Shown here: in pieces, positions 8,674-16,025 of the stretch
How positions within the stretch are numbered: the stretch's first letter is position 1
Layout of the letters: every line of letters begins with the position of its first letter
NCBI GenBank assembly: GCA_018003015.1
Contig: JAGNEZ010000042.1
Span: 1-55,568, forward strand
Reading direction: 5' to 3'
Length of the DNA stretch: 55,568 bases
From: Phycisphaerae bacterium
GTDB lineage: Bacteria; Planctomycetota; Phycisphaerae; UBA1845; PWPN01
Translations under genes and position numbers: made by a program
The notes under the pieces: model-generated
What the model was told of the DNA's origin: nothing
Seen by the model: only the letters and a program-made list of their open reading frames with translations
Databases searched by the model: none

Positions 8674-9300
8674 CGGCTATTGGATCGGATGGACCGGTCG
8701 GTCAATCCTTTTCGCCGCGCCCTCCCCCGCAGGCACTTCATGGCCCACCTGGAGATGGCGTGCGTCCGGGCGACATCGCCGGGTGACCGACTGCGGGCGG
8801 GTATGTCCGAGCCGGCTCTGCAGCGTCAGCGACACCACGCGCGCCTGCCCCACGTGCTGCACGGCGTGATCTCGCCGGGTCGAACAGAAGACCGCTGAGT
8901 TCTCCTAACGCCTTGTCCGGCAACAAGTTCAGCTGATTCTGTCTTTCAGACGACGGTTCCGGATGTGGTGACGTGCTGCCGCTGGTGGCACTCCCTTGTG
9001 AGCTTGTCGGTGCTTGATCCGAACCAAGATGAGGACGACGCTGGGTTTCTCTGGTCGACAGGTCTCGCGTGGCGGCGGGCCGCTTGCTCGCATGTCGCTC
9101 ACTGGTGTCCACGCTTGCTTGGCACATGCGCTTTCCCGGCCGGCCTGTGGTAGTATTCGCGTCGTGGTTGGTGGATTGGGGCGACGATCGGCTGACCGCG
9201 ACGTTCGCTGCGGAGATGTACTGCCCGGAAAGGGAGAAGAGACTCGATGGCGGCGGCTCGGCAGACGCCGGGCGGAGACATTACCCTGACAGGAGTGGCC
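8674..9300. other. Intergenic stretch, no gene seen
   Basis: About 630 bp follow the transporter gene. Several short frames exist on both strands but none shows a recognisable fold, conserved motif or ribosome-binding site. The distal part presumably holds the promoter of the GuaA-like gene. Confidence 0.45.
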
Positions 9301-10233
9301 ATGGATTACCGGAAGTTCGTTGAGGATAGGGTCAGTGAGATCAAGGCAACCGTAGGCTCGGCGATTGCGATCAACGCTTTGAGCGGCGGTGTGGACAGTT
9401 CCGTCGTTACGGCGCTGGGGCATCGGGCGCTGGGCAATCGGCTGAAGACCGTCTTCGTCGATAACGCCCTCATGCGTCAAGGCGAGCCTGAACGAGTCCT
9501 CAAGACCTTTCGGAATATCGGAGTTCCCGTCGAGTCCGTGAACGCCCGTGAGGAGTTCCTGGGAGCCCTGGCGGGCCTCGCGGACCCGGAGGCGAAGCGT
9601 GAGGCCATCACGAGCACTTTCTACTCCAAGGTGTTTTCCCGCCTCGTCAAGGAATCGGGGGCGAAATTCCTGTTGCACGGCACGATTCTCACGGACATTG
9701 AAGAAACCGTGGCGGGCATCAAACGCCAACACAACATTCTCGAACAGCTCGGGATTTCCACGGAGCGGGCCTATGGATACGCGGTGCTGGAACCACTCAA
9801 GACACTCCGGAAGGACGACGTTCGCGAGGTGGCCAAGGTCCTGGGTCTTCCGCCGGAGATCTGGCAACGGATGCCGTTTCCCGGCCCTGCGCTGGCAGCG
9901 CGAATCGTGGGAGAGGTTACACGCGAACGCCTGGACGTCGTGCAAGCGGCGACGGCCATCGTGGAAGAGGAGCTTGGCGAATGCGGAGCGTTTCAGTACC
10001 TGGCCGTCCTGCTGAACGATCGAGCGACGGGCATCCGTAACAACAAGAGGGAGTACGGGCACATCGTCGTGGTGCGATGCGTGGAGAGCAAGGACGCGCG
10101 CGAAGCGGCGGTGACGCGTCTTGGCTGGGAGAAGTTGACACGGATCTGCGAGCGTATTACGGCCATCCCGGGAGTGAACCGCTGCCTGTATGACCTCACG
10201 CCGAAACCTCCGGCAACTATCGAGTACGTGTAG
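9301..10233 (+). CDS. GMP synthase-like ATP-pyrophosphatase, no glutaminase domain
   Basis: This 310-residue protein corresponds to the ATP-PPase and dimerisation domains of GMP synthase, which turns XMP into GMP. The PP-loop SGGVDSS is at residues 28-34. It is followed by VFVDNALMRQGEPERVL, LHGTILTDIEETVAGIKRQHN, LEPLKTLRKDDVREVAKVLG, PFPGPALAARIVGEV and the C-terminal KPPATIEYV that matches the XMP-binding tail of GuaA. The N-terminal class-I glutamine amidotransferase domain is missing and no partner gene is in the window. An ACAGGAG site supports the ATG at 9301; an upstream ATG at 9247 is less likely. It may be a two-subunit GMP synthase as in archaea, or a divergent paralogue: the QGT motif reads HGT and the PFPGPGL motif reads PFPGPAL. 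Confidence 0.85.
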   Translation: MDYRKFVEDRVSEIKATVGSAIAINALSGGVDSSVVTALGHRALGNRLKTVFVDNALMRQGEPERVLKTFRNIGVPVESVNAREEFLGALAGLADPEAKREAITSTFYSKVFSRLVKESGAKFLLHGTILTDIEETVAGIKRQHNILEQLGISTERAYGYAVLEPLKTLRKDDVREVAKVLGLPPEIWQRMPFPGPALAARIVGEVTRERLDVVQAATAIVEEELGECGAFQYLAVLLNDRATGIRNNKREYGHIVVVRCVESKDAREAAVTRLGWEKLTRICERITAIPGVNRCLYDLTPKPPATIEYV

Positions 10234-10679: not shown

Positions 10680-11123
10680 GTGGCCAGGATTACCCGCCGC
10701 ATCAGGATCCACAACGACCTTGCCGAGCTGGTTTTCGATCCGGATCTGCCGGGTCGCGGACAGACCCTGTTGCGGATTCACGGGCATACGTACGGCCCGT
10801 GTGATCCGGTTGGCCGGGTTCCCGCGTGGGAGCTCGTGGCCTTTGCCGTTCCGGCCGAGGAGCTCTGCACCGGGCGCCGGCCGTACGAGGAGCTGACCGA
10901 GCAGGCCGTGTTCTTTGGTGAGGCTCCACCTCCCGCGCCCGCTACGCCTGCAGACTACGCGGACTGGGCAGCCCGCAAGGTGGAGGCCTGGCGGTTCATT
11001 GCTCAGTTTCTGGCCCCCATCGATGCCCGTGCCATCGAACGGCTGCGCGCCCAGAGTCGACGCCGGCCTAACGGACGACGCACTGAATCACGTTCAGGAT
11101 CAGCGAAACGCCGCCAACCATGA
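10680..11123 (+). CDS. Hypothetical protein, 147 residues
   Basis: A GTG at 10680 has an excellent GGGGAGGAG site upstream. The protein begins with RITRRIRIHNDLAELVFDPD and has a glycine-containing middle, an acidic and proline-rich region (GEAPPPAPATPADYADWAA) and a highly basic tail (RRRPNGRRTESRSGSAKRR). I recognise no family. Its 3' end overlaps the convergent kinase gene by 56 bp, so the basic tail is read opposite the kinase's C-terminal membrane helix. Confidence 0.55.
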   Translation: MARITRRIRIHNDLAELVFDPDLPGRGQTLLRIHGHTYGPCDPVGRVPAWELVAFAVPAEELCTGRRPYEELTEQAVFFGEAPPPAPATPADYADWAARKVEAWRFIAQFLAPIDARAIERLRAQSRRRPNGRRTESRSGSAKRRQP

Positions 11124-12312
11124 CCACCACCAGGAACCACATGAGCGGGATTGAGGAAGGCGAGGTTTCCTGGTCCTGACCGGCGGCCGGACGGTTGTCG
11201 GGGGCCCGCTCGCCTGTCTCATCTAGCCGGGTCAGCAACTTGGATTTGTCGTGGGTTTGCGCGTGCACGGGAGGGTCGCCTCGAGCCAGGGCCTCGAGAT
11301 CTTGAATCAAGGCACCCAGCGTGGCGTATCGGTCCGCTCGATCCTTGGCCATCATCGTCTCTATGACTTCTCCGACTCCCGTGGACAGGGAAGGTCGCAC
11401 GTGATCTGGCGGCACCAATCGCGCGTGGAGGTGCTTGCGCATGATTGTGGCGGGTACAGGCCCATCAAAAGGCACGCGTCCGGTGATCATGTGGTAGAAG
11501 GTCCCGCCTAGGCAGTAGATGTCTGCGCGGAAATCGATGTCGCTGTTCGCGCGTATCTGCTCCGGGCTGATGTAGTCGGGCGTACCGTAGACTCGGCCCA
11601 GTTCGGCCGTTGCCGCCTTGACATCCGTCGTGCGCCGGGCAAGGCCGAGATCCGCCAGCTTGGCCGTGCGGTCCTTCGTCAGCATGATGTTCGACGGCTT
11701 GACGTCCCGGTGGACGAAACCACGAGCCGCGGCATGCTCCAGGGCGCGGGCCACCTGGACGACGATCTCGAGGGCCTCCTTCTCCGCATAGACCTTCCCT
11801 GCCGACAACTCCTCTCCCACCGATTTGCCATCAATGTACTCCAGAACAAGGTAATGGTACCCTTCCGTGGTGTCGACATCGATGACCTGCACGATGTTCG
11901 GGTGGCTCAGCTTGGCCGCCGCGCGTCCCTCCTCGTGGAAACGCTCAACGAACTCCGGCTTGTCGGCCAGCTTTCGGGTCAGGACCTTAATCGCCACGAT
12001 GCGATCGAGGCTCAACTGTCTGGCTTTGAATACTCTGGCGGTGGCCCCGGCTCCGAGCTTGGCGAGAACCTGGTAGCCGGGAAAGAACCGTGATTCGTCC
12101 GCGATCGGTTCCTCCTGCTCCATACCCAGACGCTGCAATTGACGACGGGTCAGCAGTCCAGCCTTGAGCATTACCTCCGCCAGGCTGACATGGGTAGCAC
12201 CGCGGGCAAGCTCGTGCTGCTTTTGCAGGCAGGCGTCAAGCTCCCGTTGAGTCATGAGTCTTCGGGTCACGGCCAGCCGGCCGATCTGGGTCTCGCTCAT
12301 TCGATCTGTCAT
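11068..12312 (-). CDS. Ser/Thr protein kinase with C-terminal membrane anchor
   Basis: The 414-residue protein is a Hanks-type kinase. The glycine loop is LGAGATARVFKARQ, the ATP lysine lies in VAIKVL, the catalytic loop is FVHRDVKPSNIML, the Mg motif is DLG instead of DFG, and the activation segment contains GTPDYISPEQ. It starts with an ~80-residue helical module (IGRLAVTRRLMTQRELDACLQ and VMLKAGLLTRRQLQRLG) that resembles the small two-helix repeats seen at the start of GspE/MshE proteins. It ends with a hydrophobic helix, PLMWFLVVVMVGGVSLILNV, which places the kinase on the inner face of the membrane. It lies 79 bp downstream of the response-regulator operon and could be read from the same transcript. 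Confidence 0.92.
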   Translation of the reverse strand: MTDRMSETQIGRLAVTRRLMTQRELDACLQKQHELARGATHVSLAEVMLKAGLLTRRQLQRLGMEQEEPIADESRFFPGYQVLAKLGAGATARVFKARQLSLDRIVAIKVLTRKLADKPEFVERFHEEGRAAAKLSHPNIVQVIDVDTTEGYHYLVLEYIDGKSVGEELSAGKVYAEKEALEIVVQVARALEHAAARGFVHRDVKPSNIMLTKDRTAKLADLGLARRTTDVKAATAELGRVYGTPDYISPEQIRANSDIDFRADIYCLGGTFYHMITGRVPFDGPVPATIMRKHLHARLVPPDHVRPSLSTGVGEVIETMMAKDRADRYATLGALIQDLEALARGDPPVHAQTHDKSKLLTRLDETGERAPDNRPAAGQDQETSPSSIPLMWFLVVVMVGGVSLILNVIQCVVR

Positions 12313-12391: not shown

Positions 12392-13057
12392 CTAATCTTC
12401 GGGCAATCGCGGGGTCGCCTCTTCGGCCGCCGCGCCCGACAGTGCGGTGAGCTCGTCGACCAGTCTCCTCATGCGTTTCGCGGCTTCGATTCCCCGGGTG
12501 AGGACAGTTTTGGCCTCCGGGGTCAGCTGTCCTCGGTACCGGGACTGCAGGTCGTGCAGAGTTTCTGTGATCTCCTGGAGCGGAGCCCGGAACTCGACGG
12601 CTGCCACGTCCGCAAACTCCCTGATCGTCGCGTTCGTATAGGCGAGTTCCTTCGCCCGATTGGCCAGAACGGCTTCGGTCTGCTTGCGGTCGATCGCGTA
12701 ACGTATCGATCGTTCGAGGAGGGCCGGGTCAACACGGCCCTTTTCCAGGTAGTCGACGGCCCCGGCCTCCATCGCCTTCATGTCGATGAGCAGATCGCCC
12801 TGGCCGGTCAGCAGGATCATCGGCGTCTGGCAGCCCCGGGCAAGGACCTCGCGGATGAACTCGAGGCCGTCGCGGTCGCCCAGGCGGTAGTCGATGAGGC
12901 ATACGTCGTATTGCCGCTGGGCAATTCGCTCGAGGCCGCGCTCATACCGATCCGCCCAGTCAAAAGCACAACCCATCGCTCGCACGATGTCGCGGATGAG
13001 AACGTGATCATCCGGGTCATCGTCGACCAGCAGCACCTTCCAGTCACGTCGGATCAT
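12392..13057 (-). CDS. Receiver domain fused to a histidine-less DHp-like helix pair
   Basis: Residues 1-120 form a CheY-like receiver: VLLVDDDPDD, phosphoacceptor Asp56 in CLIDYRLGD, LLTGQGD and Lys106. After a coiled linker (RKQTEAVLANRAKELAYTN), residues 145-207 align closely with the HisKA (DHp) domain of the kinase encoded two genes upstream. FADVAAVEFRAPLQEI corresponds to FAYVASHDLQEPLRKI there, and AAKRMRRLVDELTALS to AARRMQTLIDDLLTFS. The phospho-accepting His is Val154 and the next Asp is Glu155, and no ATPase domain follows. It is probably a dimerising, non-phosphorylatable DHp mimic that could bind or inhibit the kinase (inference). Its start overlaps the preceding gene by 14 bp. 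Confidence 0.88.
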   Translation of the reverse strand: MIRRDWKVLLVDDDPDDHVLIRDIVRAMGCAFDWADRYERGLERIAQRQYDVCLIDYRLGDRDGLEFIREVLARGCQTPMILLTGQGDLLIDMKAMEAGAVDYLEKGRVDPALLERSIRYAIDRKQTEAVLANRAKELAYTNATIREFADVAAVEFRAPLQEITETLHDLQSRYRGQLTPEAKTVLTRGIEAAKRMRRLVDELTALSGAAAEEATPRLPED

Positions 13058-13520
13058 GATCGTTCAGCTCTCCTTCGGATGGCAGTGCGACGATCTCAAA
13101 CCAGTACCGGCCGATGAAGCGCACGATCTCGACCAGCTTGTCGAACGTCACGGGTTTAGTGATGTAGGAATTGGCTCCCGTGCCGTAGCTGCGGATGATG
13201 TCCTCCTCCGCGTGGGACGTGGTGAGCACGATGACCGGAATGGCTCGAAGGGCGGGATCGTTCTTGATCTCTCTGAGGGTTTCGCGGCCGTCCTTCTTCG
13301 GCATGTTCAGGTCCAGGAGGATGATGCCGGGGCGTGGTGCCGTCTGTGGGTCGGCGTACTTGCCCCGACGTTTGAGGTAGTCCATCAGCTCTTCGCCGTC
13401 GGATACGCACCGCAGGTCGTTGGACAACCGCGCCTCCGCCAGGGCGTCTCGAACCAGCATGACGTCTTCCGGGTCGTCTTCGGCCATCAGGATCGAAATG
13501 GGTCTGGCTCCCGTACTCAT
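13044..13520 (-). CDS. Rcp1-type single-domain response regulator
   Basis: This 158-residue stand-alone receiver has ILMAEDDPEDVMLVRDAL, the phosphoacceptor Asp70 in GIILLDLNMPKKDGRE, VIVLTTSHAEEDI and the ITKPV lysine. The layout, with a charged loop before the phosphorylation strand and a long C-terminal helix, fits the Rcp1 group that partners PAS/phytochrome-type histidine kinases. GGAGGG lies in front of the ATG, which overlaps the kinase stop codon (ATGA), so kinase and regulator are translationally coupled. There is no output domain, so it probably passes phosphate or binds a partner. Confidence 0.92.
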   Translation of the reverse strand: MSTGARPISILMAEDDPEDVMLVRDALAEARLSNDLRCVSDGEELMDYLKRRGKYADPQTAPRPGIILLDLNMPKKDGRETLREIKNDPALRAIPVIVLTTSHAEEDIIRSYGTGANSYITKPVTFDKLVEIVRFIGRYWFEIVALPSEGELNDHDPT

Positions 13521-15433
13521 GTTGAACTCCCTCCGTGCTCGATCGGAAGCGACACGATGAAGGTCGCACCGCGGTCGGGTGCGCCTCGGGCGACGATCTC
13601 CCCGCCGTGGCGCTTCACGATCTTCTGGCAAACCGCCAGGCCGATGCCCGTTCCCTCGTATTCGCCCCGTCCGTGCAGTCGCTGGAAGATGCCAAAAATC
13701 CGCTCGGCGTACTTCTCCTCGAAACCGATGCCGTTGTCCTCCACGCTGATTCGGGACATGACGCCGACCGACTCGGCCCAGATCCGGATCCGCGGGCTCA
13801 CCTCCCTCCGGCGAAACTTGAGGGCGTTGCCGACCAGGTTCTGAAACAGCTGCCGCATTTGGGTCGGATCGGCCTGGACGGTCGGAAGGGCACTCACTTC
13901 CACCTGGGCTTCAGACTGCTCGATGCGCACCTCGAGGTCGGACAGAACTTCGCCCAGGACTTCGTTCAGGTCGACGGATACGTGCGGCCGGGCCTGGGTT
14001 GTCACCCGTGAGAAGGTCAGGAGATCATCAATCAGGGTCTGCATGCGCCGAGCGGCATTGAGCATACGCCCCATGTAGTCGGGCCCCTGACCCGGCAGGC
14101 CCTCGGCACAGGTGGCCTTCAGACGGTCACCGAAGGCCAGGATCTTGCGCAGTGGCTCCTGGAGATCGTGGGATGCCACGTAGGCGAACTCTTCCAGCTC
14201 AGCGTTGGACCGAGCCAGCGCCGCGACCTGCCTCGCCACCTCACGCTCCGCCTGCTTGAGCCGGGTGACGTCCCGCCACGTGCAGCGGCCGGCGATGATC
14301 CTGCCGGAACCGTCCCGGATGGGTGAGGCCTGCACCAGAACCTCCAGAAGGCTCCCGTCAGCCCGGCGCAGCGTCCGCTCCGCGTTGGACACGTGGCCCG
14401 TCTGCACAAAGGCCGCAAACGTGTCCGCCGCCGGAGCCCGGCACTCCGGGGTATAGAGGTCCAGAAACGGGCGCCCCACGATGTCTTCCTTGCGGAGCCC
14501 CAAGGCCCCGACGAGGGTGGTATTGCATTCTAATACCTGTCCGCTGGGTGCTTCAAGCACAGCCATGAGATCCGGAGCATTTTCAAAAAGGTCTCGGTAC
14601 CGGGCCTCGGCCTGAGCCAGATCCCGCGCGTGCCGCGCCAACTCCTCGTTGGCGATGGTCAGCTGCGTCGTCCGTTCCTCCACGAGTTCCGCGAGATGCT
14701 CGCGGTGTCTCTCCAATTCCCGCTCCGCCCGCCTACGCTCGGCTATGTGTCGCCTGACGCCGCGCAGCACACTGACCCAGATCATCACCACGATGGTCAG
14801 GGTGGCCAGCCCGACCACGAAACCCAGGTATAGCTCGCGGCGTCGGCCGTGGAGGCTGGCTGCAGCACGATCCTGCAGGACGGTGGTGATCTCCTTCATG
14901 CCCTGGGAGTAGTCCTGCTTCTGATCCTCATACTCCCGGCCGGTGAAGACGGCCGCGGCTTCGTCGCGGCGGCCGTCGCGCACCAGGGAGAAGGCCTTGT
15001 TCTCCATCTCGATCAGTCTGAGGTTCGCGGCGTTCGTCCGGCTTACCGCGTCCCTCGTGAGGGCCTCGGAAGCCAGGCGCATTACATCCTTGAGGGCGGC
15101 GTCCAGTTGAGGTTCGTATACCCGATAGCGCCTCTCCCACTGCGGATCGCCTGTGGCGGCGGCCATGCGGGCGGACATGGTCAGCACCTCATCGAGATGG
15201 ACGACCACGCCACTGAGTCGCTGGATGCTGAAATCCTCTTCCAGCGTCTTCTGAACGCCACGATAGGAGGTCCACAAGTGCCAGGCCAGAGCGGCGAAGA
15301 GCAGAGCTGTTACCGCCAGACAGGCGATGAGCGATCGAATCGGGAAAGGTGGGATTCGCTGGCTCGGAAGGCGCGCTGCCTCATGGAGTTGAGCTCCCTG
15401 AGCGGTGGATTCTTGGACACCGAAGCCCGCCAT
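13517..15433 (-). CDS. Membrane-bound PAS sensor histidine kinase
   Basis: The protein has 638 residues. Two membrane helices (about 34-52 and 202-222) flank a helical extracytoplasmic sensor of the four-helix type. A coiled linker (225-280) is followed by a PAS domain (280-395, starting RYRDLFENAPDLMAVLEAPS), a HisKA domain with His422 in YVASHDLQEPLRKI, and a HATPase domain (525-632; LFQNLVGNALKF, VEDNGIGF, YEGTGIGLAVCQKIV). The ATG at 15433 is chosen because AGGAG lies 8 bases upstream; a GTG at 15451 is also in frame. It is first in an operon with two receiver genes. The stimulus is unknown. Confidence 0.95.
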   Translation of the reverse strand: MAGFGVQESTAQGAQLHEAARLPSQRIPPFPIRSLIACLAVTALLFAALAWHLWTSYRGVQKTLEEDFSIQRLSGVVVHLDEVLTMSARMAAATGDPQWERRYRVYEPQLDAALKDVMRLASEALTRDAVSRTNAANLRLIEMENKAFSLVRDGRRDEAAAVFTGREYEDQKQDYSQGMKEITTVLQDRAAASLHGRRRELYLGFVVGLATLTIVVMIWVSVLRGVRRHIAERRRAERELERHREHLAELVEERTTQLTIANEELARHARDLAQAEARYRDLFENAPDLMAVLEAPSGQVLECNTTLVGALGLRKEDIVGRPFLDLYTPECRAPAADTFAAFVQTGHVSNAERTLRRADGSLLEVLVQASPIRDGSGRIIAGRCTWRDVTRLKQAEREVARQVAALARSNAELEEFAYVASHDLQEPLRKILAFGDRLKATCAEGLPGQGPDYMGRMLNAARRMQTLIDDLLTFSRVTTQARPHVSVDLNEVLGEVLSDLEVRIEQSEAQVEVSALPTVQADPTQMRQLFQNLVGNALKFRRREVSPRIRIWAESVGVMSRISVEDNGIGFEEKYAERIFGIFQRLHGRGEYEGTGIGLAVCQKIVKRHGGEIVARGAPDRGATFIVSLPIEHGGSST

Positions 15434-15479
15434 GACTGGGACTCCTGGCACTCGCCTTCGGGGTCGTCGACGCAGAGCA

Positions 15480-15679
15480 CGAATCTGCGCGTCGCTGCCG
15501 ATAACTATTTTAATAACAACGACTTAGGGACGGTCAATCCCGCCGGTCCGCCTTTCCCTACGCAGTTGTACGCGAATGACGAGACCTTGTCCATAGTGCT
15601 AGAACGGTGGCCATCCCTACCCGCCGAGGCCAAAGAAGCCATCCGGCGGATCGAGGAAAACGAGGTGGAAAATGAGTGA
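15480..15679 (+). CDS. Small open frame or gene remnant coupled to next gene
   Basis: An open frame ends with TGA inside the ATGAGTGA that starts the next gene, which suggests translational coupling. The readable tail is LSIVLERWPSLPAEAKEAIR followed by RIEENEVENE. The W-P-x-L-P motif followed by an amphipathic helix resembles tails that I associate with planctomycete integrase-type proteins, but this is a weak recollection. The start is unknown: an in-frame ATG at 15383 would run antisense to the kinase start. It may be the 3' remnant of a larger gene. Confidence 0.35.
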
Positions 15680-16025
15680 CAGCGACGCCACAGGTGTGGG
15701 CAGTATTGCCCAACCGTCAACAAGGGCGGTTCACGGCACCGATCGGGATGCGGGCGGAAAATTCCTTCCTGGTAACCGCGTGGCCAAGGGGAACCCTTTC
15801 GCAAAAAAGGTTGCGGCCCTTCGGTCGGTGCTCCTGCGAACCGTGAAGGCGTCCGACCTCAAGGAGATGGTGAGGAAGTTGGTCTCGGCAGCGAAGGATG
15901 GCGATACCGTCGCGGCGCGCGAGGTTCTCAATCGGCTCTTGGGGCCGGCGATCCAGGTGGATATTCTTCAGCGGTTGGAGGACGTCGAAGCACGGTTAAG
16001 CGGAGGTGTCGAGCGTGCCAATTGA
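15672..16025 (+). CDS. Small helical protein with FLPGN-GNPF motif (DUF5681-like)
   Basis: The 117-residue protein has an N-terminal GKFLPGNRVAKGNPFAKKVA, a motif seen in small phage- and mobile-element-associated proteins (DUF5681-like, possibly related to small terminase subunits). A helical repeat region, LKEMVRKLVSAAKDGDTVAA, follows, then REVLNRLLGPAIQVDILQRL. No enzymatic motif is visible. It overlaps the frame before it by 8 bases and the zinc-ribbon gene after it by 11, so the three look like one transcript. This cluster is unlike the surrounding signalling genes and may be acquired DNA. Confidence 0.65.
   Translation: MSDSDATGVGSIAQPSTRAVHGTDRDAGGKFLPGNRVAKGNPFAKKVAALRSVLLRTVKASDLKEMVRKLVSAAKDGDTVAAREVLNRLLGPAIQVDILQRLEDVEARLSGGVERAN

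Follow-up and report, generated by a model that had tools for sequence, protein, structure and literature searches.

Within the 55,568-nucleotide stretch of DNA analysed here (the window), one gene encodes a 221-residue protein in which a receiver domain (REC) is joined directly to a relative of the DHp hairpin (HisKA) of histidine kinases, with valine at the phosphoacceptor histidine position and no ATPase domain behind it. We moderately favour the view that this protein is a degenerate Rec-controlled histidine kinase (Rec-HK) of the LvrB type, turned into a phosphorylation-switched, non-catalytic dimeric response regulator or adaptor and so far seen in one genus. It would represent a natural case in which only the dimerisation hairpin of a kinase core is left, behind a receiver that stayed intact. 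The gene and its parts are as follows:

12392..13057, minus strand: 221-residue receiver–pseudo-DHp protein (open reading frame with ATG start; same-length orthologue in a congener)
12722..13036, minus strand: receiver domain, residues 8–112 (Pfam, alignment, AlphaFold2)
12416..12676, minus strand: pseudo-DHp, residues 128–214, comprising the end of helix 111–173, a loop and helix 180–214 (HisKA match, leave-one-out profile HMM, AlphaFold2, Foldseek)
12596..12598, minus strand: codon of Val154, at the phosphoacceptor His position (alignments; kept in the congener)
12554..12556, minus strand: codon of His168, the only His of the tail, within HDLQ and two heptads (14 residues) after Val154 (kept in the congener; may be chance)

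The receiver domain

Pfam places a Response_reg domain at residues 8–112 (E-value 6e-20), and receiver domains also filled the match list of a VIA-align comparison of the protein. The phosphorylation residues D13, D56, T84 and K106 are all present and are invariant among 22 aligned homologues; the receiver is probably still switchable by phosphorylation. No PAS or GAF domain was matched by Pfam between REC and HisKA, which are joined directly by a predicted helix, and no ANTAR domain was matched after REC up to an E-value of 10. An ANTAR output of the EutV type was dropped for want of this Pfam support, although EutV is the top Foldseek match of the whole model (10 Å rmsd). Nor is the protein a single-domain receiver, since the AlphaFold2 (AF2) model contains the additional DHp.

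The tail is homologous to a DHp domain

The Pfam HisKA model matches residues 146–207 with an E-value of 0.0015 and 19 bits, which is below its cutoff of 26.9. To test this resemblance, a leave-one-out profile was built; it comprises 80 DHp segments of related loci that all bear the His, without the 221-residue protein and its orthologue. Against this profile the tail reaches 61.8 bits, a value which may be slightly biased towards the tail because the 80 segments came from an iterative search seeded partly with it. By comparison, the highest score was 7.8 bits among 500 composition shuffles of the tail and 19.2 bits among 500 shuffles that preserved its hydrophobic pattern; the reversed tail scored 4.1 bits. 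Aligned with the DHp of the histidine kinase in the same operon, the tail is 33% identical over 83 residues without a gap (E-value 3e-11, calculated for one comparison).

AF2 was run on an alignment of 22 REC-DHp sequences. The structure prediction proposed in a first-pass annotation of this DNA gave a DHp-type hairpin at a pLDDT of 89–90 (mean 89.7 for the whole protein, 88.9 for the tail alone). In the model, a receiver fold is followed by helix 111–173, which runs unbroken from REC alpha5 into the DHp, and by helix 180–214, which closes the hairpin. A Rec-HK is built in this way: receiver alpha5 forms a single rod together with the signalling helix and DHp helix 1, and DHp helix 2 follows. 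The best Foldseek matches of the tail-alone model are DHp domains of histidine kinases, including the ERS1 DHp, LOV-histidine-kinase chimeras, GacS and the RetS–GacS DHp complex (7n0e); their E-values are high (0.06–0.3), as expected for a helical hairpin. The whole model matches LvrB chains (8vc9) over 214 columns with a TMq of 0.47–0.49, and at an rmsd of about 11 Å only local parts superpose. Thus, homology of the tail to HisKA/DHp is confirmed, mainly by sequence comparison and in agreement with the predicted fold.

Losses and retained features of the pseudo-DHp

In 82 aligned DHps, the phosphoacceptor column holds His in 80 and Val in two, namely the 221-residue protein and its orthologue. 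At the following position, 50 of the 82 have Asp and 32 have Glu. The first-pass annotation had reported a receiver carrying a DHp without its histidine, with Glu for the adjacent Asp and no ATPase domain behind. The missing histidine is borne out by the alignment and the profile score, and Glu is indeed present; as a sign of decay, however, Glu fails, because it occupies this position in 32 of the 82 DHps. Pfam found no HATPase match in the protein, which stops seven residues past DHp helix 2, and the next gene begins only 79 bases further on, so that no room is left for an ATPase remnant. Hydrophobic core columns of the DHp are kept at 18 of 21 positions; the losses include a core Leu of helix 2. 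At the Ser-Arg (SR) end of the DHp, the conserved Arg is also gone.

Transmitter phosphatases carry ExxT/N beginning at the residue after the phosphoacceptor His. At this site the 221-residue protein has EFRA; the motif (HExxT; PMC5992135) is absent, and a role as transmitter phosphatase was rejected.

A displaced phosphoacceptor was also considered, in which His168 of HDLQ would have taken over phosphotransfer and the protein would be a receiver–HPt piece of a relay. His168 is kept in the congener and is followed by Asp169, which replaces a core residue that is mostly Leu or Ile in relatives, and HDLQ occurs in only 0.02% of tail shuffles. However, this string was chosen after looking at the sequence, homology accounts for its Leu170, it is not followed by a Pro, an ATPase domain is missing and helix 1 ends five residues from the site. 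We regard such a displacement as very improbable.

Orthologue, distribution and selection

An orthologue in the congener RA.bin145 (JAKLEZ010000024.1) is 94% identical and keeps length, stop, Val and Glu. An assembly or frameshift artefact was rejected since length, stop and Val are identical in this second genome. Loss of the histidine is thus shared by the sole true orthologue. Outside the genus, His is kept in 80 of 80 other DHps, an outcome that the first-pass annotation had named as counting against its idea, but these belong to kinases of other architecture.

The first-pass annotation had suggested looking for other receiver–HisKA-like proteins without His in order to see whether Val and Glu are conserved; both are in the congener, but in no other relative that was found. 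When 114 genomes of the order and 392 of the phylum were searched with the whole protein, and 392 with only its tail, the best matches listed contained no further receiver–DHp protein without an ATPase domain. Only plausible short ORFs of these matches were opened, and a diverged short relative could be missed. Short-ORF candidates for a truncated REC-DHp were rejected as other response regulators without a DHp or as kinases cut by contig ends. Phyla beyond Planctomycetota were covered solely by a pattern-based scan of genome contigs, which matched only the congener and one Desulfobacteraceae receiver, and viral contigs scanned for a degenerate AVEFRAPLQ(E/D) DNA motif yielded nothing. A receiver from a Desulfobacteraceae bin (L039, 41–361) is 51% identical over 107 residues and thereby as near as any planctomycete match from outside the genus.

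A comparison of the two genomes gave a dN/dS of 0.16 for REC, about 0.4 (0.39) for the tail and 0.04 for the DHp of the operon kinase. Tests of pN/pS against neutrality gave 0.26 for the whole gene (p = 1e-4), p = 0.0003 for the receiver and 0.36 for residues 119–214 (p = 0.046); for residues 119–221, p is 0.066 and not significant at 5%. Constraint on the tail is weak at best.

Such relaxation would also be seen if the protein worked only as a receiver (competitor or phosphate sink) and its DHp were a decaying Rec-HK leftover which at most keeps the dimer. The narrow distribution and a long branch (see below) fit this explanation, and so do the losses described above: the His, the HATPase, three core positions and the SR end of helix 2. 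On the other hand, frame, length and helix pattern of the tail are kept in both species, 18 of the 21 core positions remain, and the pN/pS of residues 119–214 is below 1. A mere vestige is rather unlikely in our opinion, but it is the most probable of the alternatives to a degenerate Rec-HK with a new role.

Operon context

The neighbouring genes on the same strand are:

13517..15451, minus strand: membrane histidine kinase with PAS, HisKA containing FAYVASHDLQEPLRKI, and HATPase (Pfam)
13044..13520, minus strand: Rcp1-like stand-alone receiver, 158 residues from ATG (Response_reg in Pfam; same 158-residue ORF in the congener)
11068..12312, minus strand: Ser/Thr protein kinase gene, 79 bases downstream of the 221-residue gene (Pfam; arrangement kept in the congener)

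The operon order of kinase, Rcp1-like receiver and receiver–pseudo-DHp, as described in the first-pass annotation, was confirmed: the stop of the kinase gene shares bases with the start of the Rcp1-like gene, which in turn overlaps the start of the REC–pseudo-DHp gene by 14 bases. The kinase ORF comprises 644 residues from its first GTG (the 638 given earlier imply a slightly later start) and contains, as judged by eye, two hydrophobic stretches resembling TM helices. Its best NCBIfam match is LvrA, far under the cutoff of that model. The downstream Ser/Thr protein kinase is a possible partner of the operon.

The order of an LQEPL-class kinase, an Rcp1-like receiver and a REC-X protein was found in 33 of 72 locus rows, corresponding to 31 distinct operons including both pseudo-DHp ones; the loci were chosen by receiver similarity and the counts are not a census. 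According to Pfam and motifs, the third gene of the other 29 operons encodes a histidine kinase core in 11 cases, GGDEF with or without EAL in eight and a sigma54 AAA domain in one; in seven, PAS/GAF is encoded by an ORF truncated where the locus ends, and two have no recognised output. None of these 29 third genes was seen to end after a DHp. Consequently, what sets the pseudo-DHp operon apart is the dead DHp, its plan being an ordinary one. That the same slot is elsewhere occupied by REC-HisKA-HATPase (11/29), REC-GGDEF or REC-sigma54 proteins supports a degenerate Rec-HK; weak tail constraint, presence of the gene in two genomes only and a very long branch count against it.

The two third genes without Pfam output (L025, L026) were rejected as DHp proteins, as their tails score only 2.4 and 0.2 bits. 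The receiver of L026 (1105–1983, minus strand), which occupies the same operon slot as the 221-residue gene, shares a C-terminal part of about 150 residues without Pfam match with a receiver of L024 (1495–2343, plus strand). By eye, the two parts look homologous (LDLALEQ/LDLAVER, VEHPIT/VEHDLT, VLELMGHLAS.YR).

Origin of the DHp and possible action on the operon kinase

The DHp tree, weakly resolved owing to few columns, places the pseudo-DHp inside the SHDLQEPLR class with a support of 91/94. The operon kinase belongs to the same class but is not the sister of the pseudo-DHp, whose branch is 2.9 changes per site long. The first-pass annotation took the tail as a copy of the operon kinase's helix pair. 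Membership in the same class stands, as does the gapless alignment which includes the second helix; derivation from this particular kinase is supported neither by the tree nor by identity (33% to the own kinase, 34% to another). Most simply, the 221-residue protein arose from a Rec-HK by loss of the ATPase domain and the His, or by fusion of a receiver with an SHDLQEPLR-class DHp.

The shared class and operon would be consistent with an anti-kinase that blocks autophosphorylation of the operon kinase under control of D56, either through pairing of the pseudo-DHp with its DHp or through docking on it as a receiver. The first-pass annotation had thought along these lines, with dimerisation or a block of phosphotransfer, besides a phosphate sink. 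There are precedents in RetS acting on GacS (PMC5992135), a complex which is itself among the fold matches of the tail, and in the single receivers FixT and Osp (PMC9430884). However, other kinases are at least as close to the pseudo-DHp as its own, which is not its sister either, and we consider an anti-kinase unlikely. Slightly less probable still is a negative feedback, in which the operon kinase would phosphorylate D56 and thereby enable the dead DHp to switch that kinase off by pairing or docking. If true, this would be a built-in feedback exerted by a dead relative of the kinase itself, formerly a Rec-controlled kinase.

Comparison with known systems

The closest paradigm for a degenerate Rec-HK is LvrB of Leptospira (PMC13269768, PMC5863495; PDB 8vc9), which has the same order of REC, signalling helix and DHp and likewise lies in an operon with an upstream kinase. 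LvrA transfers phosphate to D56 of LvrB (PMC5863495); once the receiver is phosphorylated, its dimer is altered and the signalling helices zip up, by which the CA domains are freed (PMC13269768). However, LvrB is a kinase with phosphoacceptor His161 and a CA domain, and the 221-residue protein has neither; gene context suggests that it may be activated by the operon kinase. By analogy, the operon kinase would phosphorylate D56, as well as the Rcp1-like receiver, and phosphorylation would rearrange the receiver pair and the signalling helix, while the DHp hairpin would form a homodimeric four-helix bundle. The first steps of the LvrB mechanism could thus survive, but for the last one the CA domain is missing. 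As no catalytic part is left, the output would have to be a binding event, be it with the kinase, the Rcp1-like receiver or another partner. In addition, the receiver may compete with the Rcp1-like receiver for phosphate from the kinase.

According to the first-pass annotation, no system with such a piece had been described. This does not hold, as both halves of the combination have precedents. A census of archaea from 2018 lists REC-(PAS)n-HisKA proteins without HATPase, none of which had been studied, and its authors suggest dimers acting via protein-protein interaction (PMC5847659). These archaeal proteins (REC-(PAS/GAF)n-HisKA, e.g., AF_1472) resemble ours in combining receiver and HisKA without HATPase, but they have PAS/GAF in between, whereas in the planctomycete protein REC is joined directly to the DHp and His is Val. 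Furthermore, lack of the His does not preclude function of a DHp, as DivL demonstrates (PMC4211667). There, the position is taken by a non-phosphorylatable residue (Tyr; Ala in Magnetospirillum), as by Val in both known members here; however, DivL keeps PAS and CA domains and has no receiver, the reverse of the 221-residue protein with its receiver and missing CA. The kinase inhibitors RetS, FixT and Osp (PMC5992135, PMC7078487, PMC9430884), receiver or kinase-core proteins which bind transmitters, may be a functional parallel, but FixT and Osp are single receivers and RetS is a full hybrid kinase, in contrast to a receiver with a pseudo-DHp.

The open-access literature yielded no description of a bacterial receiver that leads straight into a DHp without His. 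One large census of two-component systems removed proteins without the conserved His (PMC4558063), so that such genes may be under-reported. The combination of REC-HisKA without HATPase and a His-less DHp seems to be new, as a variant of described proteins. Two congeneric genomes and an ordinary, recurrent three-gene operon make this a simple system in which to ask for the role of such a protein.

Other genes of the window

Two further ORFs were noted in the vicinity. The ORF at 9247–10233 (plus strand) encodes the ATP-pyrophosphatase and C-terminal domains of GMP synthase, with no glutaminase domain in the same ORF. At 15672–16025 (plus strand), divergent from the histidine kinase gene, a small protein with weak similarity to DUF5681 is encoded.
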